Of a stretch of DNA of 64,000 nt, positions 18,889-48,059 are shown in pieces. Under the pieces are notes generated by a model. It did not search any database and was not told where the DNA came from. It worked only from the letters and a program-made list of their open reading frames with translations. Both the position numbers and the translations under genes were made by a program. Position 1 is the stretch's first letter. Each line of letters opens with the position of its first letter. This DNA comes from Bradyrhizobium sp. (GTDB taxonomy: Bacteria; Pseudomonadota; Alphaproteobacteria; Rhizobiales; Xanthobacteraceae): assembly GCF_030693485.1 (NCBI RefSeq), contig NZ_JAUYAN010000326.1, positions 1 through 64,000 of the forward strand. Direction: 5' to 3'.

Positions 18889-20931
18889 TCAGAATTTGGC
18901 GACGACGGGGCCGGCATTGAAACGGTAGTTCAGACCGATCTTGGTGAGTTGCACGTCGGTGCGCGAGGTCAGCTGCGTGGTGCCATCGCTGGCCAGACTT
19001 GTCCGCGTTCCAAAGCCCATGTAATCGTATTCGGCCTTGGCCGACCAATTGGCGTTCAGCGCGAATTCGGCGCCGATGCCGATGGTCCAGCCCACGCGGG
19101 TGTTTTCGCTCGAAATGCTGTTGATCAGGGCGCCGGCCTGATTGTTACACGTCCGCGCATTGCCCGGCACGTTGAACGGTCCCACGATGCAATTCGCCGA
19201 CACGGTCTCGTTGACGAATGCGGCACCACCCTTCACGTAGTAAAGGGTGCGGTCCCAGGCATAGCCCACTCTGGCGGTTGCCGATGCAAGCCAGTTCAGC
19301 CGCGTGTTGCAGGTCAGGAAGAACGGGCTGAAGCCGCCGGGGACGCCATTCGCGTCAAGTCCGGTATCGGTGCCGCAGGTCCGGCCGCCCTTGAGATCGG
19401 CCCAGCTGGCATCGGCTTCGACGCCGAGCACGAACTTGTTGGCCATCTGGTAATTGTAGCCGATCTGGCCGCCGCCGAGGACGCCGGCAGAACGCGTACC
19501 AGCCGTCTGGCCGTAGCCGACGAAGCCGATGTCATCACGCCCATAGCCCGCGCCGCCATGGGCACCGAGATAGAAGCCGGTCCAGTTCACATAGGCGATG
19601 GCCGGCGGCAGGGCCTTGACCCGCGTCTTGGTCGGCATGACCGATGCAAGCAATTCGGGGCTGAATTGATAGCGAACGCCGGCGGTGCCCGACCAGCTCT
19701 CGATGGTCTCGCCGTTGCGGTAGTCGACACGGGCAAATCCCAGCCAGCCCGTGTTGACGACCTGCCCGGCGATGCCGAGCGAGTATTGGCCATAGGTTCC
19801 GACCCTCGACGTCGTGGTCGCCGCGCTAAAGGTGGCGGGGGAGAACCCGCCCGGCACCGGCACACCCGGTCCGAAGAAATTGCAGTTCGCACAGGTCGCG
19901 AAGTTCGAGGTGATGTTGCCTCCGAATTCGCGGAACACGCTTGCCGTGAAGAAAGGCGTGAGCGCCAGGTTTCCGGACTGCACGGAAGTCCCGACGCGCA
20001 CGCTGGCGCGACCGATCTGGCTGGTGACGTCGTTGATCTTCAGGGTGCCGGAGATGTTGGCTCCCTGTCCGACGCCCGGCTGGCCGACCGACGAGAATGA
20101 ATCAAAACTGGTCCTGGCATAGGTGAAGCCGGCCGAGGGCTCGATGAACCAGTTGTTGGCGATCGCGAAGTTGTAACCGGCGTTGATCGCAAACGACGTG
20201 CCGCGGCCGGAGATCGGCTGCGAGAAGAAGCCGGCGCCGGCATTGCTCAGGGCAATATTGTAGAAGTCCTGTTTGAGCAGCGCATCCGCGAAGAACCGGC
20301 CGTAGGTGGCAACACCGTAGGTGCCGACAAACGGAATCTGGATGTTGCTGGAAAATCCATTGTTGAGGGAAGTCGAGTTCGACTCCAGATAGCCGGCGGT
20401 GGTGCCGAGGTGCAGGTTCCAGCCGTTCCAGTTCAGCCGCGCGGTGTCGGCGCCGATCTGGAAGCCGGCATAGTTTTCACGGATCTGGTTGTTGCAGTTG
20501 ACCGTCGTGGTTTGATCGAGCGTGGCGGGCGGCGACTGGTTGAGGGTCTGCGTGGTCGAGGTGCTCGAAACGGTGGCCTGGCCACCGGTGGCGCGTCCCC
20601 AGATTCCGCCACCCGGGGAATTCGGCGGAGGATTGCCGGGAGCGGACACGAAGGCGCTGCCCTGTCCCGCCTGGAAAACCGTATTGGCGTTGCTGGTCGC
20701 CGCCGAAATCTGCGCGGACAAGGAGCTGGCGAACTGACCGAGGATGCCGGCTCCGGGTCCCGTCGTTCCGGGCGGGACGCCGATTCCGGCCGGCCCCGCG
20801 ATATTGGTCACGTTGCAGTTCTGCGCCTGCGCGGCCGTCGACGACAGCATGATGGCAAATGCGACACCGGCAAAAAACCTGATCGTGTTGCCGGGACGCA
20901 TGCGCAATTTTGCAATGCGAGAAGCAGACAT
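18889..20931 (-). CDS. Double beta-barrel outer-membrane protein (autotransporter-like plus Omp31-like)
   Basis: 680 aa. The signal peptide ends in STAAQAQ. About residues 105-430 show alternating hydrophobic strands, Tyr/Phe girdles and a GIWGRATGGQ start, like an autotransporter barrel. From about residue 440 a second barrel begins with the Omp25/Omp31 signature NWTGFYLGAHGGAGYG and ends LTKIGLNYRFNAGPVVAKF, the typical C-terminal Phe. Each half could form a complete barrel, so this is a fusion of two outer-membrane domains; most relatives have one. A frameshift artefact is unlikely because the whole is one frame. The function is unknown. Confidence 0.8.
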   Translation of the reverse strand: MSASRIAKLRMRPGNTIRFFAGVAFAIMLSSTAAQAQNCNVTNIAGPAGIGVPPGTTGPGAGILGQFASSLSAQISAATSNANTVFQAGQGSAFVSAPGNPPPNSPGGGIWGRATGGQATVSSTSTTQTLNQSPPATLDQTTTVNCNNQIRENYAGFQIGADTARLNWNGWNLHLGTTAGYLESNSTSLNNGFSSNIQIPFVGTYGVATYGRFFADALLKQDFYNIALSNAGAGFFSQPISGRGTSFAINAGYNFAIANNWFIEPSAGFTYARTSFDSFSSVGQPGVGQGANISGTLKINDVTSQIGRASVRVGTSVQSGNLALTPFFTASVFREFGGNITSNFATCANCNFFGPGVPVPGGFSPATFSAATTTSRVGTYGQYSLGIAGQVVNTGWLGFARVDYRNGETIESWSGTAGVRYQFSPELLASVMPTKTRVKALPPAIAYVNWTGFYLGAHGGAGYGRDDIGFVGYGQTAGTRSAGVLGGGQIGYNYQMANKFVLGVEADASWADLKGGRTCGTDTGLDANGVPGGFSPFFLTCNTRLNWLASATARVGYAWDRTLYYVKGGAAFVNETVSANCIVGPFNVPGNARTCNNQAGALINSISSENTRVGWTIGIGAEFALNANWSAKAEYDYMGFGTRTSLASDGTTQLTSRTDVQLTKIGLNYRFNAGPVVAKF

Positions 20932-21172: not shown

Positions 21173-21188
21173 AGTGACGCTCGTCACA
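21173..21188. promoter_or_regulatory. CRP-like site upstream of the caspase gene
   Basis: AGTGACGCTCGTCACA matches the CRP/FNR-family half-site pattern TGTGA-N6-TCACA at all but one position. It is centred about 113 bases before the caspase start at 21293, within a 361-bp non-coding gap (20932-21292) in which I see nothing else. The best partner sites are at 26569 and 26685. Confidence 0.45.
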
Positions 21189-21292
21189 TCAGGAAAGGGC
21201 AGACCGTTGATCGGGGAGGAGGGAGAAGATATTGCTTTGGTGGATCAATGGATTTCGGGCCAGCCGCCCGCCATGCTTGTCTCGACAGGAAA

Positions 21293-23506
21293 ATGATAAA
21301 GCGCCTCGTCACATTGGCGGCACTGATCGGAGGGGCCATGCTTGCGATGGCTTCCGAGGCCGCTTGGGCGGAGAAGCGCGTCGCGTTGATCGTCGGCAAT
21401 TCGCGCTACCAGACCGTTCCGCAGTTGGCCAATCCCTCGCGGGATGCGAACGCCGTGGCCAGGATGTTCAAGGACGCGGGCTTCGATTCGGTCGAGGTCC
21501 AGATCAACGTCGGCAATCTCGAATTCAAGCGCGCGATCAGGAAATTCGAGACGACAGCCGATCAGGCCGACATCGCCGTGGTCTACTATGCCGGTCATGG
21601 CCTCGAGCTTGCCGGAACCAATTACCTCATCCCGATCGACGCGAAGCTCGCCAGCGACCGCGACGCGGAGGACGAAGCTATACTGCTGGAGCGGCTGGTG
21701 TCGTCGGCGGACGGCGCCAAGCGGCTGCGTCTCGTCATCCTGGACGCCTGCCGGGATAATCCTTTCGTCCCCGCCATGCGCCGCGAACGCAAACTCGCCA
21801 ATCGCGCGGTAACCTCGGGTCTCGGCAGGGTCGAGCCGACCAGCACCGACACGCTGATCGCCTACGCCGCGAAGGCGGGCTCGACCGCTGACGATGGCGA
21901 TGGCCAGCACAGCCCCTTCACCGCAGCGGTGCTGAAAAACCTGACCGTGCCCGGTCTCGACGTCCGGCTCGCCTTCGGCCGCGTCAGGGACGAGGTCTTG
22001 AAGACCACGGCCAACCGGCAGGAGCCGTTCGTTTACGGCTCGCTCGGCGGCGGTAATATCTCGCTGGTGCCGGCCCCCGCGGGTGCGCGGGACGCGCCGG
22101 CCAGCGACGTCAAGGCCGACTACGAACTGGTGCAGAAAATCGGATCGCGCCGGGCCTGGGAGGTGTTTCTGGGCACCCATCCGACCGGCTTCTATGCGGA
22201 TCTCGCGCGCGCGCAGATGGACAGTCAGGCGCCGTCCGCCAACACCGTTGTTGCCGCTCTCCCGCCGCAGGCGGCTCCCTCCACCCGCGAATCCTCCTCG
22301 AAGGAAGCGCTGGAGTGGGACAGGCTGAAGGACTCGACCGACCCGGCGGTGCTGCAGCGATTCATCAAGCGTTATCCGGATTCACCGTTGTCGATCATGG
22401 CCCAGCAACGGATGGATCTGCTCAGGAAGGCCGCCCAGGAGCGCGAGGACCAGGCCCGTGCGGCGCGCGACGCCGCGCGCAAGGCCGCGGAGGAAGCGCT
22501 TCGGCAGGCCGAGCAACGCAAGGCCGAACTGGCGGCTGTCAGGAAGCGCGAAGACGACGAACGCCGCGCGCGCGAGGCGGAGGCGGCCGAGAAAGCGAGG
22601 GCTGCCGCGGCGGAACTGGCAGCGGCGAAAAAACGCGAGGAGGAGGAACGCCGCGCCAAAGCCGCAGAAGCCGAACAGAAGGCCAAGGCTGCGGAAGCCG
22701 AGCGCAAGGCTGCCGAGGCCAAGCAGAAAGCCGAACAGGCCGAGCGAGAGAAGGCAGCCGCGGAAGTCGCGGCTTTGCGCGCCGCCAGCGAAAGGCAGGC
22801 CCGAGAGGCTGAGGCCGCGCGCAAGAAGGCGGAGATGGCGGCCGCCCGCGAAGCTTCCTGCAAGAGCGAACAAACCAAACTCGAGGAACTGATTGCCAAG
22901 GGCAGCGAGGGCTCGGGCCTCGACGACCTCAAATCCTTCTCCAGGACCGTCAGCTGTGACCGGCTTGGACCGCTGGTTGTCGCCAGCCTCGACAGGTTCA
23001 ACGCCGCGGCGGCCAGGCGCGCCGCGGCGCTGCCCAATTCGCCCGAATTGCTCCGTGCGGCGCAAACCCAGCTGATCCGCCTTGGCTGCCTGACCGGCTC
23101 GGTCGACGGCACGCTCAATCCCCCGACCCGGACTGCGCTCGGCCGCTACCTCTCGATCGGAGGTCAGCCGACCGAGAACGCCAGCGTCACCGAGGGTCTG
23201 GTTGCGGAATTGAACAGACATACCACCCGGGTCTGCCCGATCGAGTGCCGCGCCGGCGAGACCTTGAGGGGCGAAACCTGCGTCGCCGACGAGAAGCCGA
23301 AAGCGCCGCCCGCCATCGCGGCGCGCCCCAAGGATGACGACGACGTGCAGTCGCGCCGGAAGCAGGGTGGCCGCCAGTCGGATCGCGAAACGCGGTCAAA
23401 GCCGGCGCAGGACGCCCCGCGCGCGCGCCAGCAGGCCGTGGCCCGGCCGAGCATTGTCAGTGGCGGCCGCAGCGGCGGCAGCGCGATGATCGGCGTCGGA
23501 TTTTGA
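21293..23506 (+). CDS. Secreted caspase-family protein with coiled coil and C-terminal peptidoglycan-binding-like domain
   Basis: 737 aa from the ATG at 21293, which has a CAGGA ribosome site and opens a signal peptide; the track start is 51 codons upstream. The caspase domain (about residues 27-260) has His102 in YYAGHGLE and Cys153 in LDACRDNPF. Residues about 380-530 are a long Ala/Glu/Lys coiled coil. About residues 580-630 resemble a peptidoglycan-binding repeat (QLIRLGCLTGSVDGTLNP). A basic, Arg/Gln-rich tail follows. It converges on the CHASE2 cyclase gene 57 bases away. It is likely a periplasmic protease of unknown target. Confidence 0.87.
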   Translation: MIKRLVTLAALIGGAMLAMASEAAWAEKRVALIVGNSRYQTVPQLANPSRDANAVARMFKDAGFDSVEVQINVGNLEFKRAIRKFETTADQADIAVVYYAGHGLELAGTNYLIPIDAKLASDRDAEDEAILLERLVSSADGAKRLRLVILDACRDNPFVPAMRRERKLANRAVTSGLGRVEPTSTDTLIAYAAKAGSTADDGDGQHSPFTAAVLKNLTVPGLDVRLAFGRVRDEVLKTTANRQEPFVYGSLGGGNISLVPAPAGARDAPASDVKADYELVQKIGSRRAWEVFLGTHPTGFYADLARAQMDSQAPSANTVVAALPPQAAPSTRESSSKEALEWDRLKDSTDPAVLQRFIKRYPDSPLSIMAQQRMDLLRKAAQEREDQARAARDAARKAAEEALRQAEQRKAELAAVRKREDDERRAREAEAAEKARAAAAELAAAKKREEEERRAKAAEAEQKAKAAEAERKAAEAKQKAEQAEREKAAAEVAALRAASERQAREAEAARKKAEMAAAREASCKSEQTKLEELIAKGSEGSGLDDLKSFSRTVSCDRLGPLVVASLDRFNAAAARRAAALPNSPELLRAAQTQLIRLGCLTGSVDGTLNPPTRTALGRYLSIGGQPTENASVTEGLVAELNRHTTRVCPIECRAGETLRGETCVADEKPKAPPAIAARPKDDDDVQSRRKQGGRQSDRETRSKPAQDAPRARQQAVARPSIVSGGRSGGSAMIGVGF

Positions 23507-23562
23507 CGCAAGGGGGCGCGTTGATCGGGCGGTACCGTCCGGTGCCGATTGCGAAAGCCCGC

Positions 23563-25722
23563 TTACTTTTCCTGCAGGGTCCGGACCGGGTCCCATTCAC
23601 CTGAAGGCGCTTGCTGCGCCTGGATCCTTGCCCGCTCGAGAAACATCCGGGAGGGCCGGTCCGTTTCGGCGGCCTGCCCGAAGCATTTTTCGGCGAGCGC
23701 AAACTCACCGGCGCGCCAATGCGCGAGGCCGCTGGCGTAAACAGCCGTGACCGCGGCCTGCGCAGGCGTCAACTCCGCCGCCAGCGCCAGCAACTGGTAG
23801 ATCTTCAGCTGATTGGTGCGCCCCTTGACGCGGATGGTGTCGAGCTCACGCCAGGCGAACGTCTCGCCCGTCAGGGCGACCGTCGTCTCGGAAGCGATCA
23901 CGGTGGTGCCGTAGAATTTATTGGCACCCTCCAGCCGCGAGGCGAGGTTTACTGCATCGCTCATGACCGAATAGTTGAAGCGCCGCCGCGATCCGAAATT
24001 GCCGACCAGTGCGTCCCCGGAATTGATCCCGATGCGTTGCGCCACCTTGTTGCCGCCAAACGCAGCCGCGCTGCGATTGAGTTCTTCGAGGCGGACGCAG
24101 CAGTCCAGCGCGGCACGCAGCGCATTGCCGGCATGGTCGTGATCGTCGGCCGGTGCGCCGAATACCGCGACGATCGAATCGCCGATATATTTGTCGACAT
24201 AGCCGCTATGGCCTTCGATGATGTCGGTCATTTCGGACAGATACTCGTTCATCAGCGCCATCAGCGCTTCCGGCGACATCGTTTCCGCGATCAGCGAAAA
24301 ACCCTCGAGGTCGGAAAAAAATACCGTCACGTGGCGGGTTTCGCCGCCCAGCACCGGCGGCTTGTTCGACGCCAGCATGCGGTCGATCACGTCGGGGGCG
24401 AGGTACAGCGCGAAGCTCTTCTGCAGCAGCCGGCGGTCCTTGTCGGTGATCATGAAGCGATAGCCGACCATGGCCGCCAGCGCGGCGAAGCCGGCAATGA
24501 GCGGTTCGCTGAGCGGCAGCACCAGCGCGTGGTTGAAGGCCACCGTGGCGCCGACCACGTAGATCGTCATCGCCCCGAGAAACGCCAGCACCGCGGCGGC
24601 CGGCTTCAGGGTTCGTGCCAGGATCGCCGCAAAAGCGGCGACCAGTGCGGCGATCAGGGCAACCGGAAAGCGGCGGAGTTCGACGGCCACATTGCGGGCG
24701 ATCAGGTTGTTGACGGCGGTGGCATGAATATAGACGCCGGCGATGTCCCGGCGCTGAAAGCGGCCGCTGACCGGCTGCTCCGCCAACGCGCAACGTGGCG
24801 CGCGCGCGCCCTCGATCCCGGTGGCAAAACGCTTCGACGTCCGCTGGCGATCCTCCGAACCTAGCACCGTACCGACGACGACGACCTTGCCTTCGAACTG
24901 ACGCCGAAAGAAATCCTTGTCGCTTTTCGCGGCGCAGGCGGTCAGGTCGGCCAGCGAATAGGTCGGGATGTCGTCCGCGCCGCCCTCGAAATTGAGCGTC
25001 ATCGTATTGCGCACCGTGCCCGGAATCCGGTAGCCGGCGAGTGCAGCCGTTCCGTCGGCCTGCAATTCCGCCTTGGCATCGAGCGCGCGCGACGCCAGTT
25101 CCAGCGCCATCGAGGGCACCGGCTTGCCGTCCACCGTAAACGTCAGCGGCAGCCGGCGGACGACATCGTCGCTGTCGGTGTAGACGTTGAGCGCCCGCAC
25201 GTTCTGTTGCTGGCGAACGGCGATGCGCTGTCCCGGCGAGGGCCGGATCGGCTGGTCGCCGCGCAGCACTTCCCCCAGCACCACCTTGCCGCCAGCGGCA
25301 GCCACCGCGAGCGCGCGAAGAAAATCGCGGTCGAAACCGCGGACCTTTTCACCGAACTGGCCGCCGCCGAACGGGATCTCGGACTGCTCGATCGACTTCT
25401 CGAACACGATGTCGAAGCCGACGACCTTGGCGCCGCCTTCGACGATCGCGCCGAGAACGCGGCCGATCTCACCGGTCCATGTCAGCAGCGGCGAGCCCTT
25501 GAACGGCGGCGCCTGGTAGGTTTCCTCGTCGACCGCGACCACGACGGCCGGCGAGGCGGCGGGATCCTGCCTGCTGCCGAACATCTCCCAGCGCAGCGCC
25601 GTGAGAATGTCGATCGACAGACCGTGGGCGATGTTGAACGCGGGCGCGACGGAGACCGCGGCGCAAACCAACACGATGGCAGCGAAGGCAATGACGTCCC
25701 GCGTCCTGCGCCCGATATTCAA
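23563..25722 (-). CDS. CHASE2-domain adenylate/guanylate cyclase (class III)
   Basis: 719 aa. An N-terminal membrane helix is followed by a periplasmic CHASE2 sensor (about 30-330), then two to three transmembrane helices (about 345-430) and a cytosolic class III catalytic domain (about 460-640). The metal site is visible in FFSDLEGFS and VDKYIGDSIVAVFG; the Lys in that second motif favours ATP over GTP. A TPR-like tail ends the protein. It would make cAMP in response to a periplasmic signal. The FecR-like gene upstream is 20 bases away in the same operon and may be its periplasmic partner. Confidence 0.92.
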   Translation of the reverse strand: MNIGRRTRDVIAFAAIVLVCAAVSVAPAFNIAHGLSIDILTALRWEMFGSRQDPAASPAVVVAVDEETYQAPPFKGSPLLTWTGEIGRVLGAIVEGGAKVVGFDIVFEKSIEQSEIPFGGGQFGEKVRGFDRDFLRALAVAAAGGKVVLGEVLRGDQPIRPSPGQRIAVRQQQNVRALNVYTDSDDVVRRLPLTFTVDGKPVPSMALELASRALDAKAELQADGTAALAGYRIPGTVRNTMTLNFEGGADDIPTYSLADLTACAAKSDKDFFRRQFEGKVVVVGTVLGSEDRQRTSKRFATGIEGARAPRCALAEQPVSGRFQRRDIAGVYIHATAVNNLIARNVAVELRRFPVALIAALVAAFAAILARTLKPAAAVLAFLGAMTIYVVGATVAFNHALVLPLSEPLIAGFAALAAMVGYRFMITDKDRRLLQKSFALYLAPDVIDRMLASNKPPVLGGETRHVTVFFSDLEGFSLIAETMSPEALMALMNEYLSEMTDIIEGHSGYVDKYIGDSIVAVFGAPADDHDHAGNALRAALDCCVRLEELNRSAAAFGGNKVAQRIGINSGDALVGNFGSRRRFNYSVMSDAVNLASRLEGANKFYGTTVIASETTVALTGETFAWRELDTIRVKGRTNQLKIYQLLALAAELTPAQAAVTAVYASGLAHWRAGEFALAEKCFGQAAETDRPSRMFLERARIQAQQAPSGEWDPVRTLQEK

Positions 25723-25742
25723 GGTCTGATGCCCGGCAAAAC

Positions 25743-26408
25743 CTATTCCAACCGCAGCAGGCGGCCGACGATCGGCGTCGGACCGGGTTTGGCCTGGGGA
25801 TCGACCCGGAACACGACCTTGCGGGATGCGAATGTTGCCGCATAGGTGGCGCCGGGCGTGAGCGACTTGCTGGTGCCGGCGAGATCGTAGAACCTGCCCT
25901 TCAGCTGGTTGCCGGTGAGATCGAACTGCTGGCGCTCGCCCTTCTGGTCGAGGCGTTCGAACACCAGCGTGCCGCGCCCCTTGGCTTCGACGAGGGGCGA
26001 GGTGCCATAAAGCGTCAACGGCGGGCCGGCTGGCGCGGCGCCTTTCCCCACGCTGCGGACGACGCTGGCGGCGACGTCGCTGGTTGCCCGCGTCGTCGCG
26101 TGGACCTGCGCGGGGTCGCAGTTCGTCCTGGCGGCTTCGACCTCGGCGAGGTGGACCTTGCTCTCATCCTCGCCGACGATGATCGTGCCGACGCCGCTGA
26201 TGGTTTCGCGGCGGCAGGATTTCATGTAGCCGACCACGATCGAAGCACCCTGTCCGAGCCTGATGACCTTTCCCGGCACGATATAGTCCATGAACTCGGC
26301 GCCGGAGACATTGCCCTGAACCTCTTCCACGACTGCTACCGGCGCCTGGGCGGTCGCGGACCCCGAGAACCCCATCACGGCGATAACCACAACAATCGCT
26401 TTCTTCAT
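25743..26408 (-). CDS. FecR-like secreted protein in operon with the cyclase
   Basis: 221 aa. The signal peptide ends SATAQ. Residues about 25-100 follow the FecR-domain pattern (VQGNVSGAE..., PGKVIRLGQGASIVVGY), then a segment with two Cys (SCRRET and TNCDP). FecR domains are periplasmic beta-rich modules often placed before CHASE2 cyclases, where they may relay signals. It overlaps nothing and lies 20 bases before the cyclase. Its promoter region has two CRP-like sites. Confidence 0.78.
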   Translation of the reverse strand: MKKAIVVVIAVMGFSGSATAQAPVAVVEEVQGNVSGAEFMDYIVPGKVIRLGQGASIVVGYMKSCRRETISGVGTIIVGEDESKVHLAEVEAARTNCDPAQVHATTRATSDVAASVVRSVGKGAAPAGPPLTLYGTSPLVEAKGRGTLVFERLDQKGERQQFDLTGNQLKGRFYDLAGTSKSLTPGATYAATFASRKVVFRVDPQAKPGPTPIVGRLLRLE

Positions 26409-26568
26409 CGCAAAACCTCATTCCAAGAGGCGAAGCCGGGCTCAACGGTGAAGTGAGCCGATCGCTACGCAAGCCGGACATCGAGAATCGACAATCCCGT
26501 TATTTCGCTTCGCCGCATCGGGACGAAGGAAGTATCTCACACGGGTAGCTTGATCGCCCTCAGGAAAG

Positions 26569-26584
26569 TGTGATCCATGTCACA
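26569..26584. promoter_or_regulatory. CRP-like site 1, perfect TGTGA-N6-TCACA
   Basis: TGTGATCCATGTCACA is an exact match to the CRP palindrome. It lies about 160 bases upstream of the FecR/cyclase operon start (26408, leftward) and 180 bases before the small rightward gene at 26766. The 357-bp region 26409-26765 holds this and a second site. Confidence 0.6.
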
Positions 26585-26684
26585 TAACCGCGAACCGCGC
26601 GGCGGCGGGATCGAACTCTTAATACATCGGCGGATTCAAATCGAGCTTGGCCCGGGCGTAAGCGGGGCGCCGCAACGCAGAATG

Positions 26685-26700
26685 TGTGAGCTGGATCACG
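26685..26700. promoter_or_regulatory. CRP-like site 2
   Basis: TGTGAGCTGGATCACG differs from the palindrome at one terminal base. It is 116 bp from site 1, about eleven helical turns, so both face the same side of the DNA. It ends 65 bases before the small gene at 26766, close to a typical activation distance. Confidence 0.5.
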
Positions 26701-26765: not shown

Positions 26766-26897
26766 ATGAGCAAGATCTTTACGGTGGTCAAACCCGCGCT
26801 GCTGGCGATCGACGCCGTCATCACGCGCACGATTTTGTGGTTCTGGATGTCCACGCTGCAGGCGCAGCTCGGGCATGAGCGCGAGCCGCAGCATTGA
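26766..26897 (+). CDS. Small protein with a hydrophobic helix, 43 aa
   Basis: The track ORF begins upstream, but the ATG at 26766 has a GGAG ribosome site 7-8 bases before it and gives a clean 43-aa product: a basic start, one hydrophobic helix with two Trp, then a polar, charged tail. It is probably a small membrane-associated protein. Its promoter region contains the CRP-like pair shared with the cyclase operon, so it may be cAMP-controlled. The function is unknown. Confidence 0.5.
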   Translation: MSKIFTVVKPALLAIDAVITRTILWFWMSTLQAQLGHEREPQH

Positions 26898-27001: not shown

Positions 27002-28582
27002 ATGGCCATTTGCCTCGACGCGCCGCGTTATCTGCGCTTCGCGCTTGTGTTCCTCACATTGTCGGTGGTGACCGGCGCGCGCGCCCAGGATGCGCCGCAG
27101 CCTCAGCATCAGGCGGCTACGCCGTCGGAGCCGAAGCCGGGCGCCACCGGTGCGCGCGGCAACGCTTCGAATCCGCCGGCCGCCGAGCAAGGCCGGCTGC
27201 CGCCGGATTCGACCACCCAACATACGCTCGCGCTTCCCGGGCGGACGCTCGACTTCACCGCCACCGCCGGTTTCATTCCGCTGTTCAACGACAAGCGCGA
27301 GCCTCAGGCCGAGATCGCCTTCACGGCCTACCAGCTCAACGGCGCCGATGCGCGGACCCGGCCGGTCACCTTTCTGTTCAATGGCGGGCCGGGCGCCTCC
27401 TCGGCCTGGCTGCAATTCGGCGCGGCCGGACCGTGGCGGCTCGCCATCAATGCCGATGCGGTGACGTCCTCCGCCGCGCCTGATCTGTTGCCGAACGCCG
27501 AGACCTGGCTCGACTTTACCGATCTGGTCTTTATCGATCCGGTCGGCACCGGCTACAGCCGCTTCGTCGTGACCGGCGATGAGGTGCGCAAGCGGTTCTA
27601 TTCGGTCGATGGCGACGTCGACACGATCGCGCTGGTGATCCGCCGTTGGCTGGAGAAATCCGATCGGCTGCCGTCGCCGAAATTCGTCGCCGGTGAAAGT
27701 TATGGCGGGATTCGCGGGCCGAAGATCGTACGCAATCTGCAGGTCGACCAGGGCGTCGGGGTGAGGGGGCTCATCCTGGTGTCGCCGCTGTTCGACTACC
27801 GCGAATTCACCGGCTCCAGCCTGCTGCAATATGTCTGGAGCCTGCCCTCGATGACGGCGGTGGCGCGGGAGTCCAGGGCAGGCGAAGGTGGCGTTACCCG
27901 GGCCGACCTTGCCGACGTCGAAAGCTATGCGCGAGGCGAATTCCTGGCCGACCTGCTCAAGGGATCGGCCGACGCCGAGGCGACGACGCGGCTCGCCGAC
28001 AGAGTGGCTGCGTTGACCGGGATCGACCCGGCGGTGAGCCGCAGGCTGGCCGGGCGGCTTGGCGTCGGCGAGTTTCGCCGCGAATTCGACCGCCGTAACG
28101 GCAGGGTGACCGGCCGTTACGACGCCTCGGTGTCCGGCTTCGATCCCTATCCGGATTCGAGCTCCCATCGTTTCGGCGATCCCTCGGGCGAGCCTTTGGC
28201 CGCGCCGCTGACCAGCGCGGCGGTCGATCTTACCAGGCGCAAGCTCAACTGGCGGCCGGACGGCTCCTACCAACTGCTCAATGGCGCGGTGCACGGCGCC
28301 TGGGATTTCGGCCGCGGCATCAATCCGCCGGAGTCGCTGTCGCAGCTGCGGCAGGTCCTGGCGCTCGATCCAAAGCTGAAACTGCTGGTGGCGCACGGAC
28401 TGTTCGATCTGGCGACGCCGTACTTTGGTTCGAAGATCCTGCTCGACCAATTGCCGGCCTACGCCTCGCCCGAACGCGTCAGGCTGGTGGTCTATCCGGG
28501 CGGCCACATGTTCTATTCGCGCGACGGCGCGCGTCAGGCGTTCCGGAGCGAGGTCGAGGCGCTGACGAAGTTAACGCCCTGA
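27002..28582 (+). CDS. Serine carboxypeptidase (S10 family), secreted
   Basis: 526 aa from the ATG at 27002, with GGAG upstream. The signal peptide ends in GARAQ. The S10 hydrolase core shows FLFNGGPGASS (oxyanion region), the nucleophile Ser233 in GESYGG, Asp in HGLFDLATPY and His in YPGGHMFY. The family releases C-terminal residues from peptides in acidic conditions; here it acts in the periplasm. A long Pro/Ala/Gly segment separates signal and domain. A strong hairpin after the stop ends the gene. Confidence 0.9.
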   Translation: MAICLDAPRYLRFALVFLTLSVVTGARAQDAPQPQHQAATPSEPKPGATGARGNASNPPAAEQGRLPPDSTTQHTLALPGRTLDFTATAGFIPLFNDKREPQAEIAFTAYQLNGADARTRPVTFLFNGGPGASSAWLQFGAAGPWRLAINADAVTSSAAPDLLPNAETWLDFTDLVFIDPVGTGYSRFVVTGDEVRKRFYSVDGDVDTIALVIRRWLEKSDRLPSPKFVAGESYGGIRGPKIVRNLQVDQGVGVRGLILVSPLFDYREFTGSSLLQYVWSLPSMTAVARESRAGEGGVTRADLADVESYARGEFLADLLKGSADAEATTRLADRVAALTGIDPAVSRRLAGRLGVGEFRREFDRRNGRVTGRYDASVSGFDPYPDSSSHRFGDPSGEPLAAPLTSAAVDLTRRKLNWRPDGSYQLLNGAVHGAWDFGRGINPPESLSQLRQVLALDPKLKLLVAHGLFDLATPYFGSKILLDQLPAYASPERVRLVVYPGGHMFYSRDGARQAFRSEVEALTKLTP

Positions 28583-34850: not shown

Positions 34851-34866
34851 TGTGAGCCAGGTCACG
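34851..34866. promoter_or_regulatory. CRP-like site 3, upstream of the 52-aa gene
   Basis: TGTGAGCCAGGTCACG has the same half-sites as the site at 26685, differing only in the middle. It is 84 bases upstream of the leftward start at 34767, the right distance for class I activation. Confidence 0.45.
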
Positions 34867-47204: not shown

Positions 47205-47335
47205 GGTTTCTCCTGTTGTCGGAGAACGATGATTCAGAAAGTCGTATACAGCAAGAAAAATGTAGGAAAATATTCTTACAAAGTTCTTGACGAGATTCTT
47301 TTGGCTGTGAGACGATTCACTCACAACAGGAGAAA
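47205..47335. promoter_or_regulatory. Divergent promoter region between ERF and the rightward genes, with mirrored leaders and the GTATAC motif
   Basis: The leader ACAACAGGAGAAAC occurs on both strands, at 47322-47335 for the rightward genes and as its reverse complement at 47206-47219 for ERF. Between them lies AAGTCGTATACAGCAAG (47239-47255), copy 3 of the motif, 38 bases from the ERF start. No perfect sigma-70 promoter is visible. Confidence 0.65.
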
Positions 47336-47447: not shown

Positions 47448-48059
47448 GTGGGAAACAAAACCATCATCGCTAACGCTGAACCGGCTGTAGCAAATATTGC
47501 CCAAGTCCAAACCAACAAAGTTGCCGAGGAAGCCACCCAGCGTGTCTTTGAGGAAGTTGTAGGCCTCGAACGCTTTAAGGACATCACAGAAGACATCGCC
47601 GCGCTGATGAAGCAGGAGATGGTCAACCAGTCGTTCATGACTGTGCAGCTGGAGCTGACAGAAGCGCAAGCCAACGCGCTACAGGAGTTCATCCATCGCG
47701 CCGTATCGTCTGCCCGGGATCGCTACCTTGGTAAGCTTGAAAAAGACAAGCGCACCAAAAACATCGTGGGGATCGTAGAAGCCAGTATGCGGGGGGTGAT
47801 CGAGGAAGCCCTGTCTGGCATTGGGCAAGAGATTAATCGCGGCGCTGCAATCAACGCGACCGCAGTTTCCGCAAACGCCAAAAAGGACGATTACAACTCC
47901 ATTGAGCTGAATTACTCCAAGGCGGCCGGGGACATCACTATTCCCACTCGCGGGGTCTTCATATCCACCAACTGCATCCAGGTTATTCAGGATAGCTGCA
48001 AGGTGACACTGGACGACGGAACGGTCGCCGACAAAGCAACCGGTGAAATCGAGGGCTAG
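47448..48059 (+). CDS. Prophage protein, unknown function
   Basis: 203 aa from the GTG at 47448 with GGGAGAG upstream. It is helical in the first 150 residues (TQRVFEEVVGLERFKDITE, LTEAQANALQEFIHRAV), then has beta-rich C-terminal sequence. It could be a single-strand DNA binding or structural accessory. No family recognised. Confidence 0.6.
   Translation: MGNKTIIANAEPAVANIAQVQTNKVAEEATQRVFEEVVGLERFKDITEDIAALMKQEMVNQSFMTVQLELTEAQANALQEFIHRAVSSARDRYLGKLEKDKRTKNIVGIVEASMRGVIEEALSGIGQEINRGAAINATAVSANAKKDDYNSIELNYSKAAGDITIPTRGVFISTNCIQVIQDSCKVTLDDGTVADKATGEIEG

Follow-up and report, generated by a model that had tools for sequence, protein, structure and literature searches.

Among the described systems, the one closest to the locus considered here is the Clr cascade of S. 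meliloti, in which the CHASE2 cyclases CyaD1, CyaD2 and CyaK feed the Crp-like protein Clr (PMC5498481, PMC10127613, PMC13001267). These cyclases respond to a plant protein, and a Clr box is located 5' of smc02177, i.e., of a gene for a FecR-domain protein that adjoins cyaD1 (PMC5498481). We compared this cascade with a caspase/cyclase locus in a window of 64,000 nucleotides from Bradyrhizobium sp. (the whole stretch of DNA that was analysed). Both are alike in that CHASE2 adenylate cyclases adjoin the gene of a FecR-type periplasmic protein (the adjacency of FecR and cyaK is seen as well), that the box of the Crp-like receptor precedes the FecR gene as well as a gene for a secreted protein, and that an outer-membrane barrel (NsrA in S. 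meliloti) stands upstream in the pathway. On the other hand, the Clr box HGTYHCNNNNGRWACA differs from the (T)GTGA-N6-TCAC(A) boxes of our locus, which do not fit it. Furthermore, clr adjoins cyaD1 while the Bradyrhizobium candidate regulators are encoded on other contigs, and the S. meliloti partner has a FecR domain while the 221 aa protein of the window gives no match to PF04773. Caspases are not mentioned in the transcriptome paper on Clr.

With regard to the palindrome itself, the site of the M. tuberculosis CRP is TGTGA-N6-TCACA, and we know of no caspase regulon for this protein. It has an RE(T/S)(V/I)NK recognition helix in common with one of the candidate regulators discussed below, namely the one on contig C29 (PDB 3d0s, 3i54), while the phylum and the targets are different. 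Bacterial orthocaspases and metacaspases resemble the caspase of the locus in their C14 p20 domain with a His-Cys dyad and are abundant in Alphaproteobacteria (PMC3501461). The same survey describes one Trichodesmium metacaspase that is fused to a CHASE2 domain, mentions no cyclase, and names no Crp control in its passages on regulation considered here. Clusters of FecR and CHASE2 cyclase genes are known from Campylobacterota (PMC9239204); they share with the CHASE2-ShlB clusters of Azospirillum, and with our locus, a CHASE2 cyclase at the centre of a trans-envelope sensor arrangement. The cAMP loop around such a cyclase is thus a variant of a known design, since the S. meliloti loop and the Campylobacterota clusters have already been described. 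A preliminary description of the window knew of no description of such wiring. This no longer applies to the cyclase loop, which is found in S. meliloti (PMC5498481), but it holds, as far as searched, for the caspase branch of the Crp regulon: among open-licence papers we found none that ties cAMP-CRP control to caspases in bacteria, and one that names both a metacaspase and a cAMP receptor protein treats them separately (PMC3546692).

The features of the locus and the candidate regulators are compiled in Table 1.

Table 1. Coordinates of boxes, genes and candidate regulators (window positions unless a contig of the window's genome, G000, is given).
Feature	Position	Strand	Remarks
Outer-membrane beta-barrel / autotransporter-type protein	18889..20931	-	PF03797 E 7e-23, PF13505 E 3e-14
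Crp-type box AGTGACGCTCGTCACA	21173-21188	.	1 mismatch; centre ~112 bp 5' of caspase ATG
Caspase-family protein, 737 aa	21293..23506	+	PF00656 E 1.3e-32
CHASE2 - class III adenylate/guanylate cyclase, 719 aa	23563..25722	-	TTG start as listed; PF05226 E 5e-31, PF00211 (Guanylate_cyc) E 5e-25
Secreted-type protein, 221 aa, no recognised family	25743..26408	-	at the place taken by FecR proteins ahead of CHASE2 cyclases
Crp-type box TGTGATCCATGTCACA	26569-26584	.	0 mismatch; 168 bp 5' of 26408 start
Crp-type box TGTGAGCTGGATCACG	26685-26700	.	1 mismatch; probably for + strand unit
Putative small ORF, 43 codons from ATG 26766	26766..26897	+	same frame and stop codon in five genomes
Serine carboxypeptidase-like (S10) secreted protein	27002..28582	+	PF00450 E 2.7e-15; synteny in relatives
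Crp-type regulator, candidate (C29)	G000:C29:4437-5183		best structural relative M. tuberculosis CRP, E 2e-36
Crp-type regulator, candidate (C54)	G000:C54:6006-6677		best solved relative 7pza

Profile matches bear out the caspase and the CHASE2 cyclase gene as they had been named before. The caspase shows a C14 p20 domain whose His-Cys dyad (YYAGHG, LDACRD) was aligned to MALT1 structures, a long charged region of coiled character rich in Ala, Glu and Lys, and an N-terminal hydrophobic stretch that ends near AWA-E and was assigned by eye only as a putative signal peptide. The alignment of the cyclase to adenylate cyclases of solved structure covers the positions of the metal Asp and of the Lys. 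The label 'FecR-like' is not supported for the 221 aa protein: no Pfam model, FecR (PF04773) included, matched at E-values up to 5, NCBIfam gave no FecR match either, and the predicted fold is of low confidence, i.e., too poor to judge a FecR fold. The barrel gene is divergent from the caspase gene with a common intergenic region, and the two stay paired in seven related loci (L061, L062, L064, L069, L147, L148, L149). For the small ORF, no clear excess of silent changes is seen among five genomes, i.e., the ratio of silent to replacement changes does not decide on it and we do not take it as a proven gene. The S10 gene is possibly co-transcribed with it.

Sequences and coordinates of the three palindromes turned out to be exact, as did the reported distance of 116 bp (centre to centre) between the boxes at 26569 and 26685. 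We assessed their significance at different mismatch levels. With up to 2 mismatches to TGTGA-N6-TCACA, the window holds 15 matches while 16.4 are expected from shuffles; since this is no excess, we discard the looser reading as noise. The same count would also fit palindromes that are non-functional and merely reflect chance matches and shared ancestry. Stricter matching gives a different picture: three sites with 0-1 mismatch within 5.5 kb correspond to a Poisson P of ~2e-5, and for the core GTGA-N6-TCAC the window gives 6 occurrences compared to 0.63 in Markov shuffles. Within the window's genome (G000, 5.28 Mb), 12 perfect sites stand against none in the reversed control, and allowing up to one mismatch yields 49 vs. 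12. Each of the 25 Bradyrhizobium genomes (25/25) shows this excess, with 11-27 perfect sites vs. 0-2 in the control, while mostly 0-5 (10 in two cases) are found in genomes from other families of the order. That is, the palindrome at 0-1 mismatch is real and non-random.

Conservation among relatives had been proposed as a check, and it supports the boxes: they are found in the same places with invariant half-sites and diverged spacers. In detail, the closest relatives (L061, L062, L063, L069, L071) have the same box positions while the six-base spacers differ. For both cyclase-side boxes, the half-sites are invariant in a five-genome alignment and the mutual spacing is 115-117 bp. The caspase-side box shows one mismatch in the orthologs from L061, L062, L069, G007 and G020 (AGTGACCCACGTCACA, AGTGACCCAAATCACA, AGTGACTCACGTCACA, TGTGACGTGCATCACG and CGTGATGTCCATCACA) and two mismatches in those from L064 and G034. 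Such a pattern, together with the genome- and genus-wide excess over near-zero controls and the restriction of mismatches in caspase boxes to the outer bases (see below), makes chance and mere ancestry an extremely improbable account.

The strongest result is found outside the coordinates of the preliminary description, i.e., the genus-wide presence of a Crp-type box on caspase promoters. G000 encodes 16 C14 genes in total, 6 of which have a box with at most 1 mismatch shortly 5' (contigs C90, C99, C103, C152, C272 and C346) while about 0.04 are expected (P ~1e-11); the remaining 10/16 are without box. Among caspases from other Bradyrhizobium members with a domain identity of at least about 51%, 37 of 49 are preceded by GTGA-N6-TCAC, where reversed and swapped motif controls gave no match. 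These counts are not independent where genomes are related. A more distant subfamily of low identity shows no box (0/20), and caspases from other families of the order are at chance level (1/29). An extension beyond the genus was thus rejected, given this single chance-level match and the Azospirillum cyclase operons, which show no TGTGA box upstream. Near the Azospirillum cyclases, no caspase is annotated. The exact core is present in all 47 collected caspase boxes (47/47) such that mismatches are confined to the outer bases. The boxes are usually located ~75-80 bp 5' of the start codon (76-81 bp as aligned), and many cluster ~157-161 bp 5' of the start of the conserved domain. In the caspase tree, one clade is boxed in 27/28 cases, with the 28th showing, at an equal distance, a box with 2 mismatches. 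Over all 90 rows, the box label changes at least 12 times; judged from these sequences, caspase boxes are therefore repeatedly gained or lost. The window itself encodes a second caspase-domain gene (1900-2667, +), which is from the box-free subfamily.

All three boxes of the locus sit between divergent genes, which raises the question of which transcription unit each of them serves. Two boxes had been assigned to the cyclase operon. This stands for the box at 26569, while the one at 26685 is better given to the divergent + strand unit (the small ORF and probably also the S10 peptidase), since in five close relatives 68-71 bp lie between this box and the small ORF's first codon, compared to 274-288 bp between it and the cyclase operon. 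Taken further, the boxes might mainly serve the divergent partners (outer-membrane protein, small ORF, S10 peptidase), with caspase and cyclase as bystanders; both the divergent arrangement of all three and the fixed distance of the 26685 box to the + strand unit would agree with this. However, other caspases of the genome and genus are boxed at about -76 without an outer-membrane partner, and lineages without the small ORF still have a single box 71-145 bp 5' of the 25743-26408 homolog. We thus consider such a bystander role of caspase and cyclase quite improbable and retain both as likely targets.

Homologs of the 221 aa protein are encoded ahead of CHASE2 cyclases throughout the genus as well as in Azospirillum. 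On Azospirillum plasmids (L293, L294, L295), the 221-residue homolog forms an apparent operon with a CHASE2 cyclase and an outer-membrane transporter of ShlB/FhaC type. We screened the upstream regions of homologous operons, i.e., those with a gene at the FecR position followed by the cyclase, and found the core box in 16 out of 38 regions while Markov shuffles yield 0.1. A paralogous operon lineage shows the box ~71-88 bp upstream. No box is present for 22/38 operons, which comprise most of one clade as well as a G000 paralog on contig C75. Given these 16 and 22 cases, the box is, at the level of sequence, a recurrent but not a universal feature of FecR-position/CHASE2 cyclase operons. G000 encodes 17 class III cyclases and has a box directly upstream only at the window's operon. 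Being one of 17, the cyclase of the locus need not be the source of cAMP, and its link to these boxes is not unique.

We also searched relatives for the same gene set, as had been suggested, and found both genes together in some and each alone in others. The chromosomal slot flanked by the NAD kinase gene and the S10 gene contains both caspase and cyclase in the window and in L061, L062, L064 and L069, the pair of outer-membrane protein and caspase without cyclase in L147 and L149, and the cyclase without caspase in L063, L071 and most others. Since either gene occurs without the other, they are separable, and one obligatory module of caspase and cyclase is ruled out. Beyond this slot, caspases are located beside other FecR-cyclase operons in varied arrangements (L072, L091, L094) or at a distance (L063, L085). 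In total, 12 caspases (not all independent) were found near FecR-cyclase loci compared to about 1 expected at a density of ~13 per 8 Mb. One of these loci (L091, G000:C75, 1-5299) consists of a paralogous FecR-position gene, a CHASE2 cyclase and then two caspases on the same strand, with no box.

To name candidate readers of the boxes, we used the PF13545 profile, which reports about a dozen clear Crp-family proteins in G000, all encoded on contigs other than the window's C272. Only the factors on C29 and C54 have an Arg-Glu recognition helix. The C29 product aligns with the cAMP contacts of what we take to be the E. coli CRP reference sequence, i.e., Gly-Glu (GE), Arg-Ser (RS) and Thr-Ser (TS), and its helix TRESINK contains RESINK, which resembles RETVNK of the M. 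tuberculosis CRP. No box was found before its own gene. The best solved relative of the C54 factor is presumably S. meliloti Clr, which fits the entry description of 7pza. Here, TGTGACTTATGACACA or a close variant is located 64-126 bp 5' of the gene in 18/18 genomes. G006 has no C54 factor, yet its boxes remain. This weakens C54 as sole reader, and the C29 factor alone may suffice.

Given about a dozen Crp-family factors in the genome, the boxes might instead be read by a Crp/Fnr factor that responds to redox state, oxygen or nitric oxide rather than cAMP, such that the adjoining cyclase would be incidental. The C54 factor, with the box before its own gene, indeed has Gln-Ser in place of Thr-Ser at the C-helix adenine contacts. 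The half-sites, however, show an invariant G at position 2, which is CRP-like and not FixK/Fnr-like (TTGAT). Moreover, the only two factors with an Arg-Glu helix both retain the GE/R motif by which the cAMP pocket binds phosphate, and for either of their genes a class III cyclase gene is found no more than a few kb away. A reader other than a cAMP-dependent one is therefore unlikely.

We thus favour cAMP-responsive control and consider it likely, from motif and conservation data, that the palindromes are Crp-type operators of a Bradyrhizobium-wide regulon which includes secreted caspases, some CHASE2 operons and one Crp gene. Secreted caspase-family genes are its largest recognisable target class in G000. 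In the proposed mechanism, class III cyclases would raise cAMP, and a Crp-like protein (C29, C54 or both) would read the GTGA-N6-TCAC boxes and act as an activator, such that caspases and the divergent outer-membrane and secreted genes would be made together. The CHASE2 cyclase of the locus, one of 17, could be both source of cAMP and target. We infer in this way the binding, its cAMP dependence, the direction of control, the local cyclase feedback and substrates for the caspases; the locus may likewise act in stress sensing and protein cutting. Of the original interpretation, the Crp-type boxes and their link to the caspase persist, while the second cyclase box and the tie between caspase and cyclase do not.

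From the genus-wide caspase boxes we predict that much of the Bradyrhizobium caspase set is under the control of a cAMP-receptor protein. Caspases are found in bacteria in great number and are much debated in relation to cell death; as to what switches them on, a conserved operator and two named candidate regulators make caspase control directly testable in a genus for which standard laboratory strains exist. The target set of the predicted cAMP-CRP regulon would differ from the published ones of E. coli, M. tuberculosis and S. meliloti. By analogy to S. meliloti, cAMP-CRP could even be a dedicated switch of periplasmic caspases, with cyclase, barrel and caspase of the locus as a self-reinforcing circuit from sensor to protease for envelope or host signals, but this is a tentative and rather doubtful extension.

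Some further observations relate to boxes elsewhere. Within 2.1 kb of G000 (L156, C263, 15553-17680), three Crp-type boxes are each located 5' of a small ORF, and two of the three ORFs have secreted-looking N-termini. Two ECF sigma factor-like genes (L157 on C39 and L176 on C314) show a 1-mismatch box without exact core 165-170 bp 5'. In the window, further 1-mismatch core boxes are found at 34851-34866, 92 bp 5' of a 52-residue ORF (- strand), and at 47306-47321, 134 bp 5' of a 203-residue ORF at 47448. Finally, over window positions 32001-64000, the G+C content drops from ~64% to 58% and the AT skew climbs to 0.10 within the final 16 kb; this compositional shift suggests an island or other foreign stretch.
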